From Alphaproteobacteria bacterium (lineage in GTDB: Bacteria; Pseudomonadota; Alphaproteobacteria; UBA7985; JAUIBT01): a stretch of 64,000 nt of DNA. Position numbers and translations under genes: made by a program. This document shows, piece after piece, positions 8,857-19,219 of this stretch. A model generated the notes under the pieces. It saw nothing but the letters and a program-made list of their open reading frames with translations. It did no database searches and had not been told where the DNA came from. How positions within the stretch are numbered: position 1 is the first letter of the stretch; each line of letters starts with the position of its first letter. The stretch spans positions 62,001 through 126,000 of the forward strand of contig JAUIBT010000006.1 in the NCBI GenBank assembly GCA_030428255.1. Direction: 5' to 3'.

Positions 8857-10302
8857 ATGACGACAGCCACACCAACCCGCCCTGTCGGCCAGACTGATTT
8901 TGTCTCGTGGCGCGAGTTTTTGACCAGCCCCTACGCAGCGTCGCTGGCGCTGGTCTGCCTGGCTGTGTGGCTGCATGCAGCAGATTCTCTGATCGTTGCG
9001 ACCATGATGCCCTCGATGGTGGCAGAGATCGGCGGCGCACATCTGGTCGGCTGGAACGTTTCACTGTATGGCACCGCCTCCTTGGTCGCTGGGGCGGCCA
9101 GCGCGCTTCTGACCATGCGCTTTGGCCTTCGCGCTCCCATGAGCTTGGCAGCGGTCATGTTCGGCCTCGGCTGTCTTTTGAGCGCGCTTGCGCCTAGCAT
9201 GCCGGTGGTGTTGGCCGGACGCCTGTTCCAAGGGCTGGGCGGTGGCGGTTTGGTTTCCATGAGCTTCGTCGCCGTGAGCGTCATTTTTCCCAGCCGCTAT
9301 ACGGCGCGCGCAATCGCGACGGTTTCGACCTGCTGGGGCATGTCCGCCTTTTTGGGGCCGCTGGTTGGCAGCATCTTTGTCGAATACGCTACCTGGCGTT
9401 GGGGCATGGCGTTTTTCGGTTTGCAGGCCTTTGGTTTGGCCGCTTGGATTGTGCTTCGTGGTGCTGCCCGTCAAACCACTGAGCACCAGCCGTCCGACAC
9501 CGGGCGCGGTTTTCCCTTGCTGCGCCTGGCTCTGTTGAGCCTTGCGGTGGTTGCGGTCTCCTATGCCAGCGTTCGTATTGAGCTGTTTGTCACCAGTGGC
9601 TGTGTCGTACTGGGCCTGGCGAGCTTGGCGTTGTTCTTGTGGCTTGATGAGCAAGCGGGCAAGCAGCGCTTGTTGCCGCGTCGCGCTTTTGACATGCGGC
9701 GTCCGACGGGGGCAGCTTTGACAATGAATCTGCTGTTGTCGCTGGCGACCGTGGCCATTTCCTCATTTATGCCCTTGCTGATATCGCAGATTCACGGGGC
9801 CTCAGCTCTGACGATAGGCTACGTCGTCGCTTGTGCTTCCATTTCCTGGACCTTGATGGCCATCTTGGTTAGCGGGTCGCCCGAGCGTCGCGACAGCACA
9901 CTGATCACCATCGGAGTCCTAATGATCGTAGCGAGCGTCATCGGCTTTTACTACGCGCTGCCTCGCGGACCGGTTTGGCTCATCGCGCTGTGTTCAGCGT
10001 TAGACGGAGCAGGGTTCGGAATGGCTTGGACCTTCTTGTTGCGGCGCACGACCGCTTTGGCCGACCCCAAGGACCGCGAGCGCATCGCGGGGGCATTTCC
10101 GACGGTGCAGCGCTTGGGCATAGCTTTGGGCGCAGCCTATGTGGCAATTGTCGCCAATGCCTCTGGTTTTGCCACCATGCAGACCGTAGCTGAGGCGTCT
10201 CACGTCGCCCGCGTCGTTTACGCAGCTTGCCTGCCCGTCGCCCTGCTGGGGCTTCTGTCGATGATCCAGCTTGTGCGCCCTCAGCCTGAAACCTTGGGCT
10301 AG
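8857..10302 (+). CDS. MFS multidrug-type exporter under SoxR control
   Basis: The 481-residue product is a polytopic membrane protein of the major facilitator superfamily, DHA2/EmrB-like in its first half: an Asp in TM1 (AADSLIVATMMPSMV), motif A region TMRFGLRAPM, GRLFQGLGGGG and motif C-like FLGPLVGSIF. About 14 hydrophobic segments are visible. AAGGAG at 8845-8850 lies 6 bp before ATG 8857, which decides this start over the earlier GTG at 8818 within the promoter. The SoxR promoter suggests it exports redox-cycling or other toxic compounds; the actual substrate is unknown. Confidence 0.9.
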   Translation: MTTATPTRPVGQTDFVSWREFLTSPYAASLALVCLAVWLHAADSLIVATMMPSMVAEIGGAHLVGWNVSLYGTASLVAGAASALLTMRFGLRAPMSLAAVMFGLGCLLSALAPSMPVVLAGRLFQGLGGGGLVSMSFVAVSVIFPSRYTARAIATVSTCWGMSAFLGPLVGSIFVEYATWRWGMAFFGLQAFGLAAWIVLRGAARQTTEHQPSDTGRGFPLLRLALLSLAVVAVSYASVRIELFVTSGCVVLGLASLALFLWLDEQAGKQRLLPRRAFDMRRPTGAALTMNLLLSLATVAISSFMPLLISQIHGASALTIGYVVACASISWTLMAILVSGSPERRDSTLITIGVLMIVASVIGFYYALPRGPVWLIALCSALDGAGFGMAWTFLLRRTTALADPKDRERIAGAFPTVQRLGIALGAAYVAIVANASGFATMQTVAEASHVARVVYAACLPVALLGLLSMIQLVRPQPETLG

Positions 10303-10955
10303 CCCACCGCGAAGCTAGAGATGGTGTCGAGGTTGTTGCCACGCCAGGGCACCAGAGCCAGCAAAGGTCCGGGCTGCATGTCGATGGCGTGGAGTTGAAA
10401 GCTGCGATGATGCACCCAGTCGCCAGGGCCGACCAAGCGTGGCGCGAGCCCTTCGGAATGGAACACCGCTTGACCCGCGAGGATGCAATAGGTCTCTTCG
10501 GGCTCATGCTTGTGTTGCGGATAGTGCAGACCCGCACCCCAATAGCCGATGGTCAGCCGCAGGCTGTCGTCAAAAAATGGGCCTTCGGTGGAGATCAGAT
10601 TGATCCAGCCGTAGTGGTCCAAATAGGAGCGATCAAAGCCATGCTTGGCCGTATAGGACTGCTGCCAGCTCAGGCCGTGGCGGCAAGCAACCAGCGTGTC
10701 AACCAAGGGCTGGGTGGCCTCACAGGCCAGATCCCGGCAGGCGGCGAGCTCGCCCAGCAGGGGCAATGCCTGGGGTGGTCCAACGCGGTACGAGACGCGC
10801 GGGAGGACGCCGTGGGGCTCTGGCGGGTCGGTCAGTTTCTGCCAGGCTGCCGGCAGAAGGGCATGGGCTTCAGGAAAGTGCTGCCTCATGCAGTCAAGCG
10901 CCGTGTCCAGCAAGATCATCTGCATGGTTTCCGGGTCATTGGGGCCACTAAACAC
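10299..10955 (-). CDS. DMSP lyase-type cupin (DddL/DddQ/DddW-like)
   Basis: The 218-residue protein has an N-terminal helical region and a C-terminal cupin. The segment HYPQHKHEPEETY contains H-x-H-x3-E-x-Y, the metal-binding and catalytic pattern of the cupin DMSP lyases (DddK/L/Q/W), followed by the conserved second-motif histidine region (GDWVHHRSFQLHAID). Those enzymes cleave dimethylsulfoniopropionate to acrylate and dimethyl sulfide. Length matches DddL/DddQ. The likely GTG start at 10955 overlaps the stop of the upstream dehydrogenase gene by 8 bp, suggesting translational coupling; an ATG at 10925 is an alternative. Its stop overlaps the MFS stop by 4 bp. Activity on DMSP, rather than on a related onium compound, is inference. 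Confidence 0.78.
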   Translation of the reverse strand: MFSGPNDPETMQMILLDTALDCMRQHFPEAHALLPAAWQKLTDPPEPHGVLPRVSYRVGPPQALPLLGELAACRDLACEATQPLVDTLVACRHGLSWQQSYTAKHGFDRSYLDHYGWINLISTEGPFFDDSLRLTIGYWGAGLHYPQHKHEPEETYCILAGQAVFHSEGLAPRLVGPGDWVHHRSFQLHAIDMQPGPLLALVPWRGNNLDTISSFAVG

Positions 10956-12051
10956 GGTCAGATTCCGTAATCACAACGATATTGCCAACGTGCTGTTTGT
11001 CGATGAAGGCTAGCTGAGCCGCTCGCAGCTCAGCCAGGGGGTAGGTGGCGGCCAGCATGGGTCGGATTTCGCCCCGCTCGATATAGCCGACCAAATCGGC
11101 AAACATGCCCGGCGGCACGACGGTTGCGCCGGTAAAAGTTAGGTCGCGCAAGTAAAAACTGCGCAGGTCGAATGGCACCAGGGGGCCGGCGATGGCCCCC
11201 GCGCAGGTCAGGCGCCCGCCACGTTCGATTACCTCGAGCCAAGCGGGCCAGTCTGGGCCGCCCACGACATCGGCCAACACCGTCACATTGGGACGCCCGA
11301 TCGCTTGCTGCAATGCCGCCGCCAGGTCTGGTACAGAGCGGGGCAGCAAAGCGGTGGGACGAGCGCCCGCCAGGTCGGCGTGCTTGGACGGCGAGGCCAT
11401 GGCGACGGTCTGAGCCCCGCGGCGGTTTGCGAGCTGGATTAGAGCGGAGCCGACGCCCCCAGAGGCTCCGGGGATCAGCACCACGTCGCCAGCGCCGACC
11501 TGCGCGCGGTTCAACATGTTCTCGGCGGTGATATAGGAAGTGGCGAAGGTCGCAAGCTCAGCGTCGCTCAGGGCGCTGTCAATCGGATAGACGTTGGTCA
11601 GCGGTGCCTTGGTGTAGTCGGCAAAGCCGCCGTCCATCTCGGAGCCAAAATAGCCCGTCTTAGCCAGGTTGAGCGGATCGTCCCAATCGCGCAGCCAGGT
11701 ATCGATCAGCACTCGCCGCCCGACCAGCGCCGGATCGCCGCCTTGGCCCACGGCCTCGACCGTGCCGCACACGTCTGCGCCTTGGATGCGTGGGAAGGCG
11801 ATGGCAGCTCCGCCCCAGGTGGCGTCTTGCTCCTCGGCGTCCGTGTTCTCTTGGCCGCTGGTGGCCTCGACATTGCCCTTGGAATACCAGGCGGTGCGGG
11901 TGTTGACATCCGTGTTGTTGAGCCCGCAGGCAGCCACTCGGATCAGCGCTTCACCCGGTCCTGCAACCGGCTTTGGCAGATTTACGCGATAGATCAGCTT
12001 GTCAAGGCCGCCATGACCGACCAATTGGACCCCGCGCATCGTCTGGGTCAT
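10948..12051 (-). CDS. zinc-binding-type medium-chain dehydrogenase/reductase
   Basis: This 367-residue MDR-superfamily oxidoreductase has a GroES-like N-terminal domain (PGEALIRVAACGLNNTDVN, IQGADVCGTVEAVG) and a Rossmann domain with VVLIPGASGGVGSALIQLA near residues 190-210. The typical Cys-x-Gly-His catalytic zinc cluster is not obvious, so it may be a quinone-oxidoreductase-like or enoyl-reductase-like NADPH enzyme. It is the middle gene of a coupled trio: its ATG overlaps the Rieske gene stop by 4 bp, and its stop overlaps the cupin start by 8 bp. By context it might act on acrylate or an aldehyde product of the pathway, but the sequence does not prove this. Confidence 0.85.
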   Translation of the reverse strand: MTQTMRGVQLVGHGGLDKLIYRVNLPKPVAGPGEALIRVAACGLNNTDVNTRTAWYSKGNVEATSGQENTDAEEQDATWGGAAIAFPRIQGADVCGTVEAVGQGGDPALVGRRVLIDTWLRDWDDPLNLAKTGYFGSEMDGGFADYTKAPLTNVYPIDSALSDAELATFATSYITAENMLNRAQVGAGDVVLIPGASGGVGSALIQLANRRGAQTVAMASPSKHADLAGARPTALLPRSVPDLAAALQQAIGRPNVTVLADVVGGPDWPAWLEVIERGGRLTCAGAIAGPLVPFDLRSFYLRDLTFTGATVVPPGMFADLVGYIERGEIRPMLAATYPLAELRAAQLAFIDKQHVGNIVVITESDRV

Positions 12052-13142
12052 GCCTCCACCGCCGCTTTGAGCCAGGTATGCAGGGCGGCGATCGAGTGCT
12101 CTGAATCGATGCCTTCGGCTGGATTGAGCACCAAAGGTCCGGGGCGATAGCCGCGCGATCCCAGGCCTCTGTGAACCTGTTTGACCAGCACTAAGTCTTC
12201 GGCAAAGGTGGTGTCGCGATCCAGGTCGATGACCTTTTGCAGGCTGTCGTCGATCAAGCCATCGCGTGAAAACCAGCCGCGGTGAACTGTCGTGTTATTC
12301 ACGTCCTCAGGCCGCCAGTGATAGGTGTTGACCAGGCCCGAGGGATAGCACTGCAAGCTGAAGGCAGGCCAAAAGAAAAAGGATTTATAGCCCGCGCCAG
12401 AGGTGTCGTACCAGGCGCTTTCGCCGCGATTGGCGTCGGCAGTGTGCCGCAGCACCCGCGCGCCTTGCTCGTCGGCGTGGATGTTATAGGAACTGGGGTC
12501 GATCACGCCTGAGGCAAAGGTGGGGTGAACCACCTTGCAGTGATAGCATTCGTTATAGTTTTCGACCGCAATCATCCAGTTGCAGAATTCTGGGGCGGTG
12601 TGCTCGTGGGCAAAGACGCGCTGCTCGATGTCCGGGCAATGGGCCAGGATATCGTCGCGTAGGCCAGGGAAGGTCTGGTCCATGCTGGCGCTGTCGGGGT
12701 CCAAATTGACGAATAGGAAGCCCAAGAAATTCTCGACCTTGACCTCGCTCAGGCAGATGTCCGACTTGTCGAAATTGGACATGGACTTGGTGCCAGGTGC
12801 TGCGCGTAAACGACCGTCCAGCTCATAGGTCCAGGCGTGGTAGGGGCAGGAGATGACGCTGGTCTTGCCGCTGCCGCTGACCATGGTGTGTGCGCGGTGC
12901 TGGCAGACATTATAGAAGCAGCGCACAGAGCCGTCGCGCTGGCGGGCGATGAACAAGCCCTCATCCATAATATCGAAGGACAGATAGCAGCCGGGCTCTG
13001 GAATTTGGCTCTGATGGCAAGCGTACTGCCAGGTCCGGTAATAGAGCTTGTCGCGCACCAGGTCATGGATGGTCGGGTCCAGGTAATACTTCGGGTCCAA
13101 GCTGCGAATCGGTGCTTGGTCTTGGGAGGGGCGGTGGGTCAT
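12048..13142 (-). CDS. Rieske non-haem iron oxygenase, alpha subunit (quaternary-amine demethylase type)
   Basis: The 364-residue protein has a Rieske [2Fe-2S] domain CQHRAH-x15-CPYHAW (C-x-H and C-x2-H) and a catalytic domain with ENYNECYHCKVVHPTF, where the two His and a later Asp form the iron site. This resembles the family of glycine betaine, carnitine, stachydrine and choline mono-oxygenases, which remove or oxidise methyl groups on quaternary amines. ATG 13142 follows AGGAAG by about 7 bp; an upstream start would enter the divergent promoter. No reductase partner gene is adjacent, so electrons must come from elsewhere. The substrate is unassigned; an onium compound is likely from the neighbours. 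Confidence 0.9.
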   Translation of the reverse strand: MTHRPSQDQAPIRSLDPKYYLDPTIHDLVRDKLYYRTWQYACHQSQIPEPGCYLSFDIMDEGLFIARQRDGSVRCFYNVCQHRAHTMVSGSGKTSVISCPYHAWTYELDGRLRAAPGTKSMSNFDKSDICLSEVKVENFLGFLFVNLDPDSASMDQTFPGLRDDILAHCPDIEQRVFAHEHTAPEFCNWMIAVENYNECYHCKVVHPTFASGVIDPSSYNIHADEQGARVLRHTADANRGESAWYDTSGAGYKSFFFWPAFSLQCYPSGLVNTYHWRPEDVNNTTVHRGWFSRDGLIDDSLQKVIDLDRDTTFAEDLVLVKQVHRGLGSRGYRPGPLVLNPAEGIDSEHSIAALHTWLKAAVEA

Positions 13143-13300
13143 GGGCGAGCTTCCTGCTATGGCGCGCGAGCGATAAGGCGTCTGTGTGACAGAAATTTTC
13201 GCTGGCTGCTCGAACAAGTGCGGCAGAGCACGCGTCCGCTTGCGACTTGCGCAATTTTCTTAGCTCTTGCCAACTTACCGAAAATGGAACGATGGCGCGA

Positions 13301-13317
13301 ACCTTGCGGCGCAAGGT
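13301..13317. promoter_or_regulatory. 17-bp perfect inverted repeat between the divergent Rieske and flavoprotein genes
   Basis: ACCTTGC-GGC-GCAAGGT lies 84 bp upstream of the flavoprotein ATG and 159 bp upstream of the Rieske ATG. It has the size and symmetry of a dimeric repressor operator and is well placed to control both directions. The cognate regulator is unknown. Confidence 0.5.
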
Positions 13318-13400
13318 CGGTCTTGTGATCGCGCGGGGTGGCTCAAGCGTGCCACCACTGGAGCCCACCACACGCTCGCAAACAGAAGGCAGCAGCACAC

Positions 13401-15824
13401 ATGCGCAACCAAGCCAAAGTTGTCATTATCGGAGGGGGCGTCATGGGCTGCTCCCTGGCCTACCACCTGGCTAAGGAGGGATGGCACGACACCGTGTTAT
13501 TGGAAAAGGCCGAGCTAACGTCGGGATCGACTTGGCACGCAGCGGGGCAGATTACCCACTCGGTGAGCCACTATGGATTGGCCAAAATGGCCGCCTACGG
13601 CACGCAGCTCTACCCGCAATTGGAGGCCGAGACTGGCCAGTCCGCCACCTGGCACGGCTGCGGCTCGCTGCGCGTGGCCTATGAGGATGCCGAGGTTGAT
13701 TGGCTGCATTATACGCGCTCGATCGGCGTCGGCCTGGGGCATGAGATGCACATCATCGGCCCAGAGCAAATCAAGGCGCTGCATCCCTTCTATAACACCG
13801 ACGGCATCAAGGCCGCGCTGCACACGCCGCATGACGGCCACGTCGATCCGGCAGGGGTCAGTTTTGCGCTGGCCGCCGGCGCGCGCCAGCAGGGAGTCGA
13901 AGTGCTGCGCCACAACCGCGCTACCAACATTCGGCGCGATAAAGCTGAGTGGATCGTAGAAACCGAGCAGGGCGAGATTCGCTGTGAGATTGTGGTTAAC
14001 GCAGGCGGTACCTACGCACGCCAGATTGGCGCTTGGGTGGGCTTGGACCTGCCGATTGCCAACCTGCTGCACCACTACCTTATCACCGAGACCGTGCCGG
14101 AATTTTTGGATTTGGAAAAAGAACTGCCGGTGGTGCGCGATGACCGTGAGGTGTCGGGCTATATCCGTATGGAGCAGAAGTCAGGCTTGATCGGCATCTA
14201 TGAGAAGGAGGGCGCAACAACCATTTGGGACGAGGGCACGCCTTGGGCTGCGGAAAACGAGCTGTTCGACCCGGACTATGACCGCATCATGCCCTGGCTG
14301 GAAAACGCCTTTAATCGCATGCCGATCCTAGCTGATCTGGGCATCAAGCGTGTCGTGCATGGTGCTATTACCCATCCGCCTGATGGCAACATGATGTTGG
14401 GGCCGTCGGGGGTTGAAAACTTCTGGCTCTGCTGTGGTTCGCAAGTGGGCATCGCTTGGGGGCCAGGAGCGGGCAAATATCTGGCACAGTGGATGGTACA
14501 CGGCGCGGCTGATATCTCTATGGCCAGCTTTGATCCGCGCCGCTTCGGAGCCAAGATCGACGACCGCTATCGCCTGGACAAGGCCAAAGAAGACTATTGC
14601 TTGCGGCACGAGATTCCCTTCCCGCATTTGGACCGTCCAGCCTGCCGTCCTTCGCACTCCAAGACTACGCCGCTGTATGAGGTGTTGAAGGACAAGGGCG
14701 CGGTCTATCAGGACGTGTTCGGCTGGGAGCGGCCGTATTGGTACGCGCCCGCAGGCATGGCGCCCGCGCACGTCCACGCTTTTCGCCGCTCGGCTTTGCA
14801 TGATGTAATCGGTGCAGAGGTCAAAGGCCTGCGCGAAGCCGCAGCTATCGCCGACCTATCGGCCTTTGCCAAGATCGAGGTCACCGGTGCGGATGCCAGA
14901 GCCTACCTGGAGCGCGTCAGCTCAAACCGTGTGCCGACCAAGGTGGGCTCGGCGGGTCTGACCTACCTGGTGAATGGCAACGGCCGCCTTGAAGGCGAGA
15001 CCTCGATCGTGACGCTGGGCGAGGCGACCTTTTACCTGGTCTACGCGGCAGCCAAGGAAGCCAGCTTGTTCGACTGGTTACAAGGGCAAGCCCTGCCGGG
15101 TGAAGCGGTGACCTTCACCAATGTCTCAGAGCAGCGCGGCGTGATCATGCTCGCTGGCCCCAGAGCGCGCGACATCCTGAGCCAAGCGACGCCTGCCGAT
15201 CTGAGCAAAACCGCTTTCAAGTGGTTGACCTGCCAGCACATCGAGGTGGCGGGCGTGGCAAACGTGCGCGCTCTGCGGGTCACCTACACGGGTGAGCTGG
15301 GCTGGGAGCTGCACGTTCCCATGTCTGGCATGCGCGCGGTCTATGACGCGCTTGTCGCGGCGGGCGAGCCCTTGGGCATGGTCCACGCTGGATCTGCTAT
15401 GCTGAACGCGGTGCGCATGGAAAAGGCCTATAAGTCGGGCCACGAGATCACCAACGAAGTGACCTTGACCGAGGCGGACTTGCTGCGCTTTACCCGCAAG
15501 GACGGCGGCTTTCAGGGGGCTAAGGCCTCTATGCAGCCCGCGACGCGGTGGAAAGTCGCCCTGCTGCAACTGGAGGAAACCGCTGATGTCGTGGCCGATC
15601 CGTTGGGTTCAGAGAGCATCTGGCAGGGCCAGCGCTACCTTGGCACGATTGCCTCGGGTGGCTTTGGCTATGCCGTTGGGGCCTATCTGGCCTGGGCTTA
15701 CCTGGAGGTTGAAGCCTGCGCACCGGGAACCGAGGTCGAGGTCATGGTATTGGGCAAGCCGCGCAAGGCCAAGGTGCTTGACGGCCCAGTTTGGGACCCA
15801 GACAATAGCCGCATGAAGGCCTAG
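13401..15824 (+). CDS. dimethylglycine/sarcosine dehydrogenase-like flavoprotein with GcvT domains
   Basis: The 807-residue protein starts with a DAO-type FAD-binding motif VVIIGGGVMGCSLAYHLAKEG, then SGSTWHAAG, where the His is the covalent FAD site in dimethylglycine and sarcosine dehydrogenases. After the FAD domain (about 1-400) come a linking domain and GcvT-type folate-binding domains (about 430-800; RGVIMLAGPRARDIL, YTGELGWELHVP). Such enzymes oxidise N-methyl groups and pass formaldehyde to tetrahydrofolate. ATG 13401 was chosen because the Rossmann motif begins 6 residues later. It leads a plus-strand pair with the next gene and is divergent from the Rieske operon. DMSP demethylase DmdA is a related GcvT-fold enzyme but lacks the FAD domain. 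Confidence 0.9.
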   Translation: MRNQAKVVIIGGGVMGCSLAYHLAKEGWHDTVLLEKAELTSGSTWHAAGQITHSVSHYGLAKMAAYGTQLYPQLEAETGQSATWHGCGSLRVAYEDAEVDWLHYTRSIGVGLGHEMHIIGPEQIKALHPFYNTDGIKAALHTPHDGHVDPAGVSFALAAGARQQGVEVLRHNRATNIRRDKAEWIVETEQGEIRCEIVVNAGGTYARQIGAWVGLDLPIANLLHHYLITETVPEFLDLEKELPVVRDDREVSGYIRMEQKSGLIGIYEKEGATTIWDEGTPWAAENELFDPDYDRIMPWLENAFNRMPILADLGIKRVVHGAITHPPDGNMMLGPSGVENFWLCCGSQVGIAWGPGAGKYLAQWMVHGAADISMASFDPRRFGAKIDDRYRLDKAKEDYCLRHEIPFPHLDRPACRPSHSKTTPLYEVLKDKGAVYQDVFGWERPYWYAPAGMAPAHVHAFRRSALHDVIGAEVKGLREAAAIADLSAFAKIEVTGADARAYLERVSSNRVPTKVGSAGLTYLVNGNGRLEGETSIVTLGEATFYLVYAAAKEASLFDWLQGQALPGEAVTFTNVSEQRGVIMLAGPRARDILSQATPADLSKTAFKWLTCQHIEVAGVANVRALRVTYTGELGWELHVPMSGMRAVYDALVAAGEPLGMVHAGSAMLNAVRMEKAYKSGHEITNEVTLTEADLLRFTRKDGGFQGAKASMQPATRWKVALLQLEETADVVADPLGSESIWQGQRYLGTIASGGFGYAVGAYLAWAYLEVEACAPGTEVEVMVLGKPRKAKVLDGPVWDPDNSRMKA

Positions 15825-15859
15825 GGCCGCATCGCTCAAAACAAAAAAGGAGCCCATAT

Positions 15860-16237
15860 ATGGACGGCAAATTCGACATCGGCCTAGAGAAGCGCAAAGC
15901 CACGCTTGGCGCGGACTACGTTGAAAAAAATCTGGCGGCAGCCGACGACTTTACCCGGCCGTTCCAGGAAGCCATGACCGCCTGGTGCTGGGGCTTTGGC
16001 TGGGGTGACGAGGCCATCGACGCCAAGACCCGCTCGATGATGAACCTGGCGATGATCGGTGCGCTGGGCAAAATGCACGAGTGGGAAATCCATTGTCGCG
16101 GCGCGATCAACAATGGTGTCAGCAAAGAGGAAATCCGCGCGATTATCCATGTTGTCGGCATCTATTGCGGCGTGCCTCAGTCTCTGGAATGCTTCCGTGT
16201 CGCGCGCAAAGTGCTGGAAGAACAGGGGCTGCTGTAG
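15860..16237 (+). CDS. carboxymuconolactone decarboxylase family protein
   Basis: The 125-residue all-helical protein has the CMD-family core: FGWGDEAIDAKTRSMMNLAMIGALGKMHEWEIHCRGAINNGVSKEEIRAIIHVVGIYCGVP, close to PcaC-type 4-carboxymuconolactone decarboxylases rather than to AhpD (no CxxC). AAAGGAG lies 8 bp before the ATG. It is 35 bp after the flavoprotein gene and probably cotranscribed. No other protocatechuate genes are nearby, so a role in beta-ketoadipate metabolism is unlikely; its job in this cluster is unknown. Confidence 0.87.
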   Translation: MDGKFDIGLEKRKATLGADYVEKNLAAADDFTRPFQEAMTAWCWGFGWGDEAIDAKTRSMMNLAMIGALGKMHEWEIHCRGAINNGVSKEEIRAIIHVVGIYCGVPQSLECFRVARKVLEEQGLL

Positions 16238-16253
16238 GGGCCGTCACCTGGAC

Positions 16254-16871
16254 CTAGGTTCGGGGTTTCAGCTCGCTTCCTGAAAAGCTGGGGCCAAGCG
16301 CGAGCAAGGCCGAACGCGCTTGGGCGAGCTTGGCCGCCTGATCCAAGCCAGCGCCCAAGGCGCCCTCGACATAGAGTGCGGTTAGACCGTGAACGCTGCT
16401 CCATGCCAGCAGCTCTTGCGGCGACAAGGCGTGCTGATCGTCGTCAGTCAGGCTATCGGCAAAACCGCCTGCTAGCAGCGCGCCCAGACGCAGGGAGGCG
16501 CGGCGATACTCTGGGTCGTGGGCATCAATCAGCTCGCTGCGCCACATGACTTGAAACATGGCGCGGCGCTGCAAACCAAAGGCGATGTAGGCAAGGCCCA
16601 CGTCTAAGAAGGGGTGAGGTCCGGCGCTGGTCGCCGCAGCAGCCTCCATCTGTGCCGCCATGGCGTGCAGGGCCTTGGTCGCAAAGGCAGTAAACAGCGC
16701 GCGCTTGTCGCGATAGTGCTTGAAGGCCGCCGAGGGCGCAACACCGATCAGTTTCGCACAGCCGCGCAAAGTCACCGCCTCCAGGCCAAAGCGCTCGGCC
16801 AGCTCCTCGACCGCGTCAAGCAAGCTTTCTGCTAGGGCGCCGTGGTGATATCGGCCTGGTTTATGCTGCAA
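16254..16871 (-). CDS. TetR-family transcriptional regulator with WHG-type ligand domain
   Basis: The 205-residue protein has an N-terminal TetR helix-turn-helix (residues 6-52: YHHGALAESLLDAVEELAERFG, TLRGCAKLIGVAPSAAFKHYRDKRALF) and a C-terminal helical domain like WHG/TetR_C_33 regulators. It is convergent with the CMD gene (17 bp apart) and divergent from the DUF2852 gene. Two similar operator-like palindromes lie in the 151-bp divergent region, so autoregulation and control of the DUF2852 side are likely; control of the onium cluster is only possible. Confidence 0.9.
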   Translation of the reverse strand: MQHKPGRYHHGALAESLLDAVEELAERFGLEAVTLRGCAKLIGVAPSAAFKHYRDKRALFTAFATKALHAMAAQMEAAAATSAGPHPFLDVGLAYIAFGLQRRAMFQVMWRSELIDAHDPEYRRASLRLGALLAGGFADSLTDDDQHALSPQELLAWSSVHGLTALYVEGALGAGLDQAAKLAQARSALLALGPSFSGSELKPRT

Positions 16872-16893
16872 AATCAGTCTCTACTCGAAAAAA

Positions 16894-16908
16894 GTGAACA
16901 GTGATAAC
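16894..16908. promoter_or_regulatory. TetR operator-like site 1
   Basis: GTGAACAGTGATAAC, 22 bp upstream of the tetR start, matches the reverse complement of site 2 at 12 of 15 positions. The near-symmetric GTGAAC-type half-sites fit a TetR-family operator. Confidence 0.5.
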
Positions 16909-16961
16909 TTTTTTAGGTGCTGGGTCTTGCAAGTCAAGTCTCAGGTCCATATCTTTTCAAT

Positions 16962-16976
16962 GTGAGCGCTGTTCAC
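16962..16976. promoter_or_regulatory. TetR operator-like site 2
   Basis: GTGAGCGCTGTTCAC is an imperfect palindrome with GTGA/TCAC ends, 46 bp before the DUF2852 ATG. Together with site 1 it brackets the divergent promoter region. Confidence 0.55.
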
Positions 16977-17022
16977 TTGAGGGCGGCGCTGTTATGCAAA
17001 CGAAATGGAGAGGATGAGACCC

Positions 17023-17523
17023 ATGCGTGGTTGGGCAAGAAATCGTGATCGTAGCGAGATGGGTGAGCGCTATTGTTCTGTCTGGACACCCTTCGGCATT
17101 GGCATGATGGTGCTGGGCTACATCGTTTTTTGGCCCTTGGGCCTGGTGCTAACCTTGTGGATGGTCTCTGGCCGCCACGTTGCCGATCTGCCGCGGTCCA
17201 TCGGACAAACGGTATCGGGTTGGTTCCCGCGCCGCGATGGTGACGGCGGTTGGTCGGGCCACGCGGGCAAGGCCGACGGCTTTTCGGGCTTCTCGCGCTC
17301 CAGCGGTTCTGGAAACAGCGTGTTTGATGACTACCAGCAGACGCAGTACGACCGCATCTCTGAGATCAAGCAAGAGATCAAAGACACCTGGCGTCGTTTC
17401 CGCGAATTCCGCAGCGACGAGCAGCGCCGCCAGGAGCGCGACGAGTTTGATCGCTTCATGCGCGGCGGTGGTTCTGAGCCGGGTTCGGGCAGCGCCAATA
17501 ATCCCCAGAACTCGAACAGCTAA
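17023..17523 (+). CDS. DUF2852 family membrane protein
   Basis: The 166-residue protein has one or two hydrophobic segments near residues 23-50 (FGIGMMVLGYIVFWPLGLVLTLWMVSG) and a C-terminal charged helix ending in RQERDEFDRFM, the hallmark of DUF2852. Function is unknown; the family is common in Alphaproteobacteria. I prefer ATG 17023 because GAGAGG lies 9 bp upstream; ATGs at 17005 and 17014 lack a well-spaced ribosome site. It is divergent from tetR and followed by a terminator-like hairpin, so it appears to be a single-gene unit. Confidence 0.85.
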   Translation: MRGWARNRDRSEMGERYCSVWTPFGIGMMVLGYIVFWPLGLVLTLWMVSGRHVADLPRSIGQTVSGWFPRRDGDGGWSGHAGKADGFSGFSRSSGSGNSVFDDYQQTQYDRISEIKQEIKDTWRRFREFRSDEQRRQERDEFDRFMRGGGSEPGSGSANNPQNSNS

Positions 17524-17530
17524 GGCGAAC

Positions 17531-17564
17531 AACCGGCGTGGTCCACCAGGGCTGCGCCGGTTTT
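17531..17564 (+). terminator. rho-independent terminator after the DUF2852 gene
   Basis: AACCGGCG (17531-17538) pairs with CGCCGGTT (17555-17562), and T residues continue to 17564. It starts 7 bp after the stop codon. Confidence 0.65.
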
Positions 17565-17701
17565 CGGCCTGGGTAGGTGCTTTTACTGCATGACGCGTTT
17601 GGACCGAAGCTCCAGGCAAAGCGCCGCCTTCAAGCCAGCCTGTAGCTTTGCCAAGCGCTAGCGTTTTGGTGTCGATCACACAAGCTTGGAAGGCTCGTCC
17701 T

Positions 17702-19219
17702 ATGGCTCGCACCAGCCGCTCGCGCAGCGCCGCACCTGACCGTCCAATGGGCGCTCCGCCGTCCCCCTACGTCCGACGCGTTCTGCCCTTTTTTGACGTG
17801 TTGGACGAGGAGTCTTTGCGGCGTCTGGAGGACCAGGCCGAGTTCATCATGCAGGATATCGGCCTTGAGTTTCGCGACGATCCTCTGGCTTTGGAGCGCT
17901 GGCGAACGGCGGGCGCTGATGTCGACGAGACCCGCGTGCGCGCGCCGCGTGGGCTCGTGCGCGAGCTTTGCAAAACCGCGCCCAGCGTCTTTACGCAAGT
18001 GGCGCGAAATCCAGAGCGCTCGGTGGTGATTGGCGGCAGCAATCAGGTCTTCGCGCCGGTCTATGGCCCGCCTTTTGTGCGCGATCTTGACGGCGGTCGG
18101 CGCTATGGCAACATGGCCGACTTTGAAAAGCTGGTGAAGCTCTGTCAGATGCTACCCAGCTTGCACCACACGGGCTTGGTGGTGACCGAACCCTGTGACG
18201 TGCCGGTCTCCAAGCGCCACCTTGACATGGTGTTCGCGCACATGCGCTACAGCGACAAGCCGCACCTGGGTGCCATTACCGAAAAATCCCGCGCTCAAGA
18301 CAGCGTGGACATGGCGCGCATTTTGCATGGCGAGGCGGTGTTCAACTCGTCTTGCGTGATCATGGGCAATGTCAATACCAACTCGCCTCTGTTGGTCGAT
18401 CGCGTGGTTACAGAAGCCATTGAGGTCTACTGCGGCGCGGGGCAGGGCATCGTTGTCGTACCCTTTATCCTCAGCGGCGCTATGGGCCCCGTGACCTCGG
18501 CGGCCTCAATCGCGCAAGCCTTGGCGGAGGCCTTGATGTGTTGCGCCTACAGTCAGATTGTACGACCCGGTGCACCCTTTGTGCTGGGCAATTTCTTATC
18601 GTCCATGTCATTGAAGTCGGGCGCGCCCACCTTTGGCATGCCCGAACCGGTGCTATCGAACTACGTCATTGGACAGTTGGCGCGCCGCGTGGGCCTGCCG
18701 CTGCGCTGTGGCGGCAGTTTGACGGCCTCCAAGACCGCCGATGCTCAGGCCGCCTACGAGAGCGCGGACTCGGCGCATTCAACCGTCATGGCCGGCGCCA
18801 ACTTTATGCTGCACGCCGCCGGTTGGCTGGAAGGCGGGCTCTGCACTGGCTTCGAAAAGCTGGTGATGGACGCCGACCGCCTGTCGGCCTACCAGAGCCT
18901 GATGGGCGGGTTGGACGTGAGCGACGAGGCGCTGGCGCGCTCGGCCTACGAGGAGGTTGAGCCTGCTGGTCACTTCTTGGGCTGCAGCCACACCATGCGT
19001 AACTTCCAGACCGCATTCTGGGAGTCCTCGCTGTCGGACTCTGAAAACGTTGAGAGCTGGGAGGAGCGCGGTGCCAAAGACATGGAGCGCCGGGCCTACG
19101 AGCGTTGGCAGTCCTTACTGGAAGACTACGAAGAGCCGCCCATGGCCCCGGAGACGCTGGAGGCCTTGACCGCCTTCATCGCCCGGCGCAAGCAAGAGCT
19201 GCCTGACGCTTGGTATTGA
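17702..19219 (+). CDS. MttB-superfamily (trimethylamine/glycine betaine methyltransferase-like) protein
   Basis: The 505-residue protein matches COG5598/MttB across its length, with VRRVLPFFDVLDEESLRRLEDQAEFIMQDIGLEFRDDP at the N-terminus and the TIM-barrel core around GPVTSAASIAQALAEALMCCAYSQIV. MttB enzymes transfer a methyl group from a methylamine or betaine to a corrinoid protein. The reading frame has no internal TAG, so this is the non-pyrrolysine type, as in glycine betaine methyltransferase MtgB. No corrinoid protein or reductive activator is adjacent. ATG 17702 follows GGAAGG. It is separated from the onium cluster by tetR and DUF2852, so membership of the pathway is inference. Confidence 0.88.
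   Translation: MARTSRSRSAAPDRPMGAPPSPYVRRVLPFFDVLDEESLRRLEDQAEFIMQDIGLEFRDDPLALERWRTAGADVDETRVRAPRGLVRELCKTAPSVFTQVARNPERSVVIGGSNQVFAPVYGPPFVRDLDGGRRYGNMADFEKLVKLCQMLPSLHHTGLVVTEPCDVPVSKRHLDMVFAHMRYSDKPHLGAITEKSRAQDSVDMARILHGEAVFNSSCVIMGNVNTNSPLLVDRVVTEAIEVYCGAGQGIVVVPFILSGAMGPVTSAASIAQALAEALMCCAYSQIVRPGAPFVLGNFLSSMSLKSGAPTFGMPEPVLSNYVIGQLARRVGLPLRCGGSLTASKTADAQAAYESADSAHSTVMAGANFMLHAAGWLEGGLCTGFEKLVMDADRLSAYQSLMGGLDVSDEALARSAYEEVEPAGHFLGCSHTMRNFQTAFWESSLSDSENVESWEERGAKDMERRAYERWQSLLEDYEEPPMAPETLEALTAFIARRKQELPDAWY

Follow-up and report, generated by a model that had tools for sequence, protein, structure and literature searches.

Why does a gene for a predicted lyase of dimethylsulfoniopropionate (DMSP) stand in one operon with enzymes that look made for nitrogen betaines? 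The question is raised by a 64,000-nt stretch of an Alphaproteobacteria genome (assembly GCA_030428255.1, contig JAUIBT010000006.1, positions 62,001–126,000; hereafter the window). A cluster at window positions 10299–19219 encodes a DddQ-type cupin, a medium-chain dehydrogenase/reductase (MDR), a Rieske non-heme iron oxygenase, a flavoprotein resembling dimethylglycine dehydrogenase (DMGDH) and a protein of the carboxymuconolactone decarboxylase (CMD) family. Judged by gene content and sequence relationships, the locus is a compact, divergent and rearranged version of the dddQ-carrying cluster of marine alphaproteobacteria. It probably, though by no means surely, serves the breakdown of an amino-acid-type betaine, a quaternary-ammonium compound with a carboxyl group, with the cupin as an accessory lyase.

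Every gene named in the initial annotation of the locus was found again by Pfam and NCBIfam profile evidence, and the operon coupling claimed there is also seen. On the minus strand the open reading frames (ORFs) of the cupin (10299–10955), the MDR (10948–12051; ADH_N and ADH_zinc_N domains) and the Rieske oxygenase (12048–13142; Rieske and Ring_hydroxyl_A domains) overlap, by 8 nt between cupin and MDR (less if an internal ATG is the cupin start) and by 4 nt between MDR and Rieske. The flavoprotein (13401–15824) and CMD (15860–16237) genes are divergent from them on the plus strand and are separated by 35 nt.

The cupin scores 58.9 bits against PF16867 (cut-off 27), and its best PDB matches are the DddQ structures 4b29, 5cu1, 5jso and 4la2. 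The residues reported as essential in DddQ are Tyr120, His123, His125, Glu129, Tyr131 and His163 (PMC4437653); all six metal/catalytic residues are kept in the window cupin as Y145, H148, H150, E154, Y156 and H189. A tree of 58 cupins places it in a 36-member clade (support 100/98), 32 members of which come from the MDR loci described below. The clade includes the cupin of a Ruegeria lacuscaerulensis locus (L138), whose full length aligns at 320 bits with the solved DddQ of that species (4la2, 5jso). The window cupin belongs to a sub-branch of seven (99/92) with the cupins of loci L127, L111, L058, L126, L116 and L140; the R. lacuscaerulensis DddQ lies in the other branch of the clade, and no member of the sub-branch could be tied to a solved or assayed enzyme. 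Cupins from five genomes of the same order (family f3) form a different, more distant clade. In two of these genomes (L224/L225 and L226/L227) a single contig carries the cupin gene together with those for Rieske, CMD, MDR, enolase and aminotransferase. By family, residues and clade, the window cupin is assigned as a predicted DddQ-type lyase.

To see how often these genes travel together, we used an MDR alignment as the query against 84,980 species genomes and kept the 80 best-matching loci, each with flanks of 10 kb. Neighbours were identified by translated search, and length filters were added for the counts of combinations. The 80 loci were selected for their MDR likeness, with Ruegeria strongly represented, and so do not represent 80 independent events; the sample also spans Hyphomicrobiales, Paracoccaceae and other lineages. 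Neighbours include enolase-family (56 loci), DMGDH-like (55), Rieske (52), class III aminotransferase (50), RpiR (48), CMD (39), aldehyde dehydrogenase (25), cupin (25) and Amdase/racemase-like (18) genes. Full-length Rieske, flavoprotein and MDR genes occur together in 45 of the 80; 34 of these also carry the CMD gene, 20 the cupin and 15 all five. The usual order is CMD-aldehyde dehydrogenase-Rieske-RpiR / flavoprotein-MDR-cupin-enolases-aminotransferase. A cupin lies within 10 kb of the MDR in 25 loci, where the genomic density of such cupins would predict about 0.05, and its start is then mostly about 20 nt or less from the end of the MDR match. Mesorhizobium and Sulfitobacter plasmids carry the module without an adjacent cupin. 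Rare co-occurrence had been named beforehand as the outcome that would speak against a common pathway; the neighbourhood comparison gives the same five genes in 15 loci outside the window, roseobacters nearly throughout. It was concluded that the genes form one conserved module and that their co-occurrence is not due to chance.

Since the L138 cupin matches the solved DddQ, the usual cluster can be identified as the surroundings of dddQ. The setting of the cupin is therefore not new: the linkage of dddQ to an MDR gene in roseobacters was reported in 2012 (PMC3338564), and the window MDR belongs to the same dddQ-adjacent subfamily. The statement that no described pathway uses this gene set still stands, in that none was found for the other cluster genes in the open-access literature; subscription journals fell mostly outside that search, which makes this weak evidence.

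The Rieske oxygenase bears on the nature of the substrate. Among solved structures CntA, a carnitine monooxygenase, comes nearest to it (192 bits over residues 44–378), followed by the stachydrine demethylase Stc2 (118 bits) and ring dioxygenases of the cinnamate type (96 bits or less). Group V enzymes with an aromatic residue at position 203 (Va) oxidize carnitine, choline and benzalkonium, and those with Asn at this position (Vb) demethylate glycine betaine and stachydrine (PMC7948474). The window enzyme (numbered on the 389-aa ORF starting at 13217) carries the Va signature: Y221 corresponds to CntA Y203 and is kept in 54 of 55 aligned relatives, and E223 corresponds to the bridging E205 and is kept in all 55. 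The idea that the Rieske enzyme strips methyl groups thus finds no support in this form, as the N-demethylating Vb type has Asn in place of this Tyr. A GbcA/Stc2-type demethylase was rejected on the same ground and on the GbcA score (155.7 bits, cut-off 670). Equivalents of CntA Tyr203, Glu205, His208, His213 and Asp323 are all present and the metal ligands align, but the pocket residues Tyr225, Phe258, Asn270, Tyr295, Tyr315 and Phe319 of CntA are S, Y, Q, R, D and T in the window enzyme. Y277, Q289, R313, D333 and T337, which differ from CntA, are invariant in 55/55 cluster Rieskes. This invariant pocket suggests that the cluster enzymes share one substrate class other than carnitine, and Arg313 could hold a carboxylate. 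In the Rieske tree the window enzyme pairs with that of a Pelagibius metagenome-assembled genome (L091; 60% identity, support 100/100) on a long shared branch.

The remaining enzymes were assigned by domains and profile scores. The flavoprotein has the DAO, FAO_M, GCV_T and GCV_T_C domains of the DMGDH family, including a predicted folate-binding GcvT half, aligns with human DMGDH over residues 4–800 (532 bits) and conserves the STWHAAG motif. Together with the Rieske family it indicates an onium-type substrate, as had been supposed. For the MDR, a role as an acryloyl-CoA reductase of the AcuI type was considered and rejected (NF051456, 29.1 bits, cut-off 440); the dddQ-linked MDR of Roseovarius nubinhibens does not relieve the acrylate sensitivity of an Escherichia coli yhdH mutant (PMC3338564). 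The CMD protein is PcaC-like and scores below the cut-off of the PcaC model TIGR02425 (121.1 versus 155.7 bits). Its identity across clusters and same-genus genomes is 79 to 97%, compared with medians of 48% for Rieske, 55% for flavoprotein and 61% for MDR, a degree of conservation that marks it as a protein under strong constraint.

Breakdown of an amino-acid-type betaine would fit these assignments as follows. The Rieske enzyme may grip the ammonium group through a cation-pi contact with Y221 and oxidize the adjacent carbon, releasing or opening the betaine. The flavoprotein would take the remaining N-methyl groups off to folate, the MDR would reduce or oxidize the carbon skeleton, and the CMD protein might catalyze a retro-aldol, decarboxylation or isomerization step. 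The cupin would act as a metal lyase on a related beta-onium acid, such as DMSP, dimethylsulfoxonium propionate (DMSOP) or the betaine itself, by abstraction of the alpha-proton and beta-elimination, and the unsaturated acid could enter the same route. The steps of the enolase-family and aminotransferase enzymes are probably supplied from other contigs. Family membership, conserved linkage, active-site residues and clade placement are established here; substrate, step order and the part of the cupin are inferred. The homarine and proline-betaine pathways were considered as a ready-made identity and set aside, as no corresponding set of genes came out of the literature search. Near 9 of 52 core loci there is a HisP/EhuA-like ABC transporter ATPase, which was likewise dropped as a substrate clue, being too general to name the solute.

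Several observations weigh against a betaine route. The window cupin and the window Rieske both sit on long tree branches, and their specificity may have shifted. No Rieske reductase gene, of the CntB type or any other, is evident in the locus, and no enolase, aminotransferase, aldehyde dehydrogenase, RpiR or racemase-family gene adjoins the cluster at 10299–19219. A Ruegeria pomeroyi dddQ mutant produces 97% less dimethylsulfide (DMS) (PMC5395565), and such activity of DddQ on DMSP in cells keeps a sulfonium function of the cluster in contention. A complete pathway at the locus is unlikely, given that other modules add enolases, a GSAM-like aminotransferase and an aldehyde dehydrogenase. Elsewhere in the window genome there are two enolase copies on contig C5 (66 to 67% identity to cluster enolases) and one aminotransferase on contig C42 (60% identity), so that the genome may encode the whole route with its genes dispersed.

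DddQ is ranked among the main bacterial sources of DMS, a climate gas. In 2018, a study of cupins resembling DMSP lyases reportedly argued that the native substrate of DddQ may be a different compound. The puzzle is that an enzyme with a reported Km of 22 mM for DMSP should belong to a conserved cluster whose other enzymes appear suited to nitrogen betaines. We tentatively put forward one bolder scheme, which on balance is unlikely: DddQ-type cupins may have evolved within an undescribed amino-acid-betaine pathway as C-N (trimethylammonium) beta-lyases, weak DMSP activity being a by-product, with the window holding a sister branch of that enzyme within a stripped-down pathway. If the true substrate of the cluster is a betaine, estimates of DMS from dddQ abundance need rethinking. 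The natural role of DddQ would then be directly testable, and the window would offer a compact five-gene version.

The strongest competitor is a sulfonium cluster, in which the cupin genuinely serves to cleave DMSP/DMSOP and its companions act on sulfonium compounds or on what is formed from them (acrylate, dimethyl sulfoxide, methyl groups). We regard it as unlikely. DddQ cleaves both DMSP and DMSOP, often DMSOP better (PMC10686828), and R. pomeroyi mutated in dddQ loses most of its DMS production (PMC5395565). Elsewhere the window genome also encodes DmdA (481 bits against a cut-off of 410) and an AcuI that just misses its cut-off (439.4 versus 440 bits), so that the organism probably handles DMSP. 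On the other hand, the reported Km of DddQ for DMSP is 22 mM (PMC5395565), induction of dddQ by DMSP is a modest 1- to 4-fold (PMC4437653) and the dddQ-linked MDR is no substitute for AcuI (PMC3338564). The core module also exists without an adjacent cupin, and the Rieske signature is that of a quaternary-ammonium enzyme.

A wider methyl-compound island, in which the TetR and MttB genes beyond the CMD gene belong to the same pathway, is improbable. A TetR-family regulator gene (16254–16871, minus strand) lies 16 nt after the CMD gene in convergent orientation. It is followed by a DUF2852 gene (17005–17523), not listed in the initial annotation, and by a gene for an MttB-superfamily methyltransferase (17648–19219, plus strand; 719.9 bits) that would pass methyl groups to a corrinoid protein. 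The order MttB-DUF2852-TetR-CMD-flavoprotein is retained in a same-genus genome (L221), and an MttB-like gene follows the CMD gene directly in two same-order genomes (L228 11934–14443 and L236 3134–4423). However, these copies belong to a different subfamily (26 to 29% identity to that of the window), MttB lies within 10 kb of the MDR in only 9 of 80 loci, and DUF2852 and MttB form a further, separate unit beyond TetR. The MttB neighbourhood is kept only within the genus, which leaves the membership of MttB in the cluster, assumed at first, unproven and doubtful. About ten MttB homologues in the window genome make a chance proximity plausible.

Some features of these flanking genes were also recorded. 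The MttB-superfamily genes of the 3.5-Mb window genome lie on contigs C58, C52, C28, C13, C6, C1 and C44 and in the window. A pyrrolysine-type trimethylamine methyltransferase was rejected for the window copy, which has no in-frame TAG and scores 247.7 bits against TIGR02369 (cut-off 525). Pyrrolysine was also rejected for the C44 copy: its halves lie in different frames, which points to a frameshift rather than to an in-frame TAG. In L228 the MttB-like gene is followed, inside the cluster, by a dehydropantoate-reductase-like gene. TetR stays beside CMD in two same-genus genomes. In the same-genus genome G004, MttB-DUF2852-TetR-(MBL hydrolase)-CMD-flavoprotein is retained as far as the contig end. 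In the same-genus genome G003 (L056 16177–17540) the CMD and cupin genes are still present at this place, but the Rieske gene and the larger part of the flavoprotein and MDR genes are gone, and the contig ends inside the cupin; either a deletion or a faulty assembly could account for this shortened locus. A separate canonical cluster is found in G003 on contig C77.

A route for an aromatic or N-heterocyclic ring, with Rieske dioxygenation, muconate-cycloisomerase-like and CMD steps and N-demethylation by the flavoprotein, is quite improbable. The PcaC-like CMD protein and the enolases, distant relatives of muconate cycloisomerase, would suit it. Yet among structures the Rieske enzyme matches CntA best (192 bits), ahead of a classical aromatic-ring type such as cinnamate dioxygenase (96 bits), and all three cluster enolases examined have cis-3-hydroxyproline dehydratase as top NCBIfam model, each below cut-off. 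The nearest structures of the cluster enolases, which count in favour of the betaine reading, are 3eez, 2rdx and 2qdd (solved without a stated function), then 2pmq and 4h2h, which we take to be hydroxyproline-betaine epimerases. That the window genes are an ordinary group of unrelated neighbours is highly improbable: the window order departs from that of the usual cluster and several usual genes are absent, but the ORFs overlap and the five genes stand together in 15 other loci, so that the co-occurrence counts largely refute it.

The start codons of the two divergent units are probably the ATG at 13142 for Rieske and the ATG at 13401 for the flavoprotein, which would place a shared divergent promoter of about 258 bp at 13143–13400. 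Within it, at 13301–13317, lies a perfect inverted repeat of 17 bp, ACCTTGCGGCGCAAGGT, the sole exact copy within the window and a possible operator. As the repeat does not recur upstream of tetR, it was not linked to TetR. Promoter and terminator scans gave no signal above chance level. Among the core loci, 15 of 52 carry a sulfotransferase-family gene (PF19798; e.g., L084 12317–13057), mostly together with the Amdase/racemase-like gene, an odd companion in a breakdown cluster. Five carry a GFA-domain gene (formaldehyde-related by name), which in L100 (4955–5380) directly adjoins the Rieske gene.

Compared with known enzymes, the Rieske protein shares the group V fold with the Vb enzymes Stc2 and GbcA, and GbcA is its best NCBIfam model. 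The flavoprotein resembles dimethylglycine dehydrogenase/oxidase in domain order, DAO and folate-binding GcvT halves and the HAAG motif; about eleven such flavoproteins are encoded in the 3.5-Mb window genome, and membership is by domains, the activity being predicted. The clusters of Mesorhizobium (L054) and of the Sulfitobacter plasmid (L050) share 45 to 49% identity with the window in Rieske, 54 to 55% in flavoprotein, 51 to 59% in MDR and 83 to 89% in CMD. They differ in having no adjacent cupin and in carrying enolase, aldehyde dehydrogenase, aminotransferase and RpiR genes. In the dddQ clusters of R. pomeroyi (SPO1593–SPO1596) and Roseovarius nubinhibens (ISM_14095) a DddQ-type cupin stands beside the same kind of MDR (PMC3338564), and Ruegeria dddQ loci include Rieske, DMGDH-like flavoprotein and CMD genes. 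The window cluster (10299–19219) has the cupin, the dddQ-type MDR, the Rieske and the DMGDH-like genes and lacks RpiR, enolase and aminotransferase. Unlike the roseobacter cluster, it places Rieske, MDR and cupin in one operon with flavoprotein and CMD opposite, and TetR replaces RpiR. The window cluster is thus a new variant of an already known cluster type.

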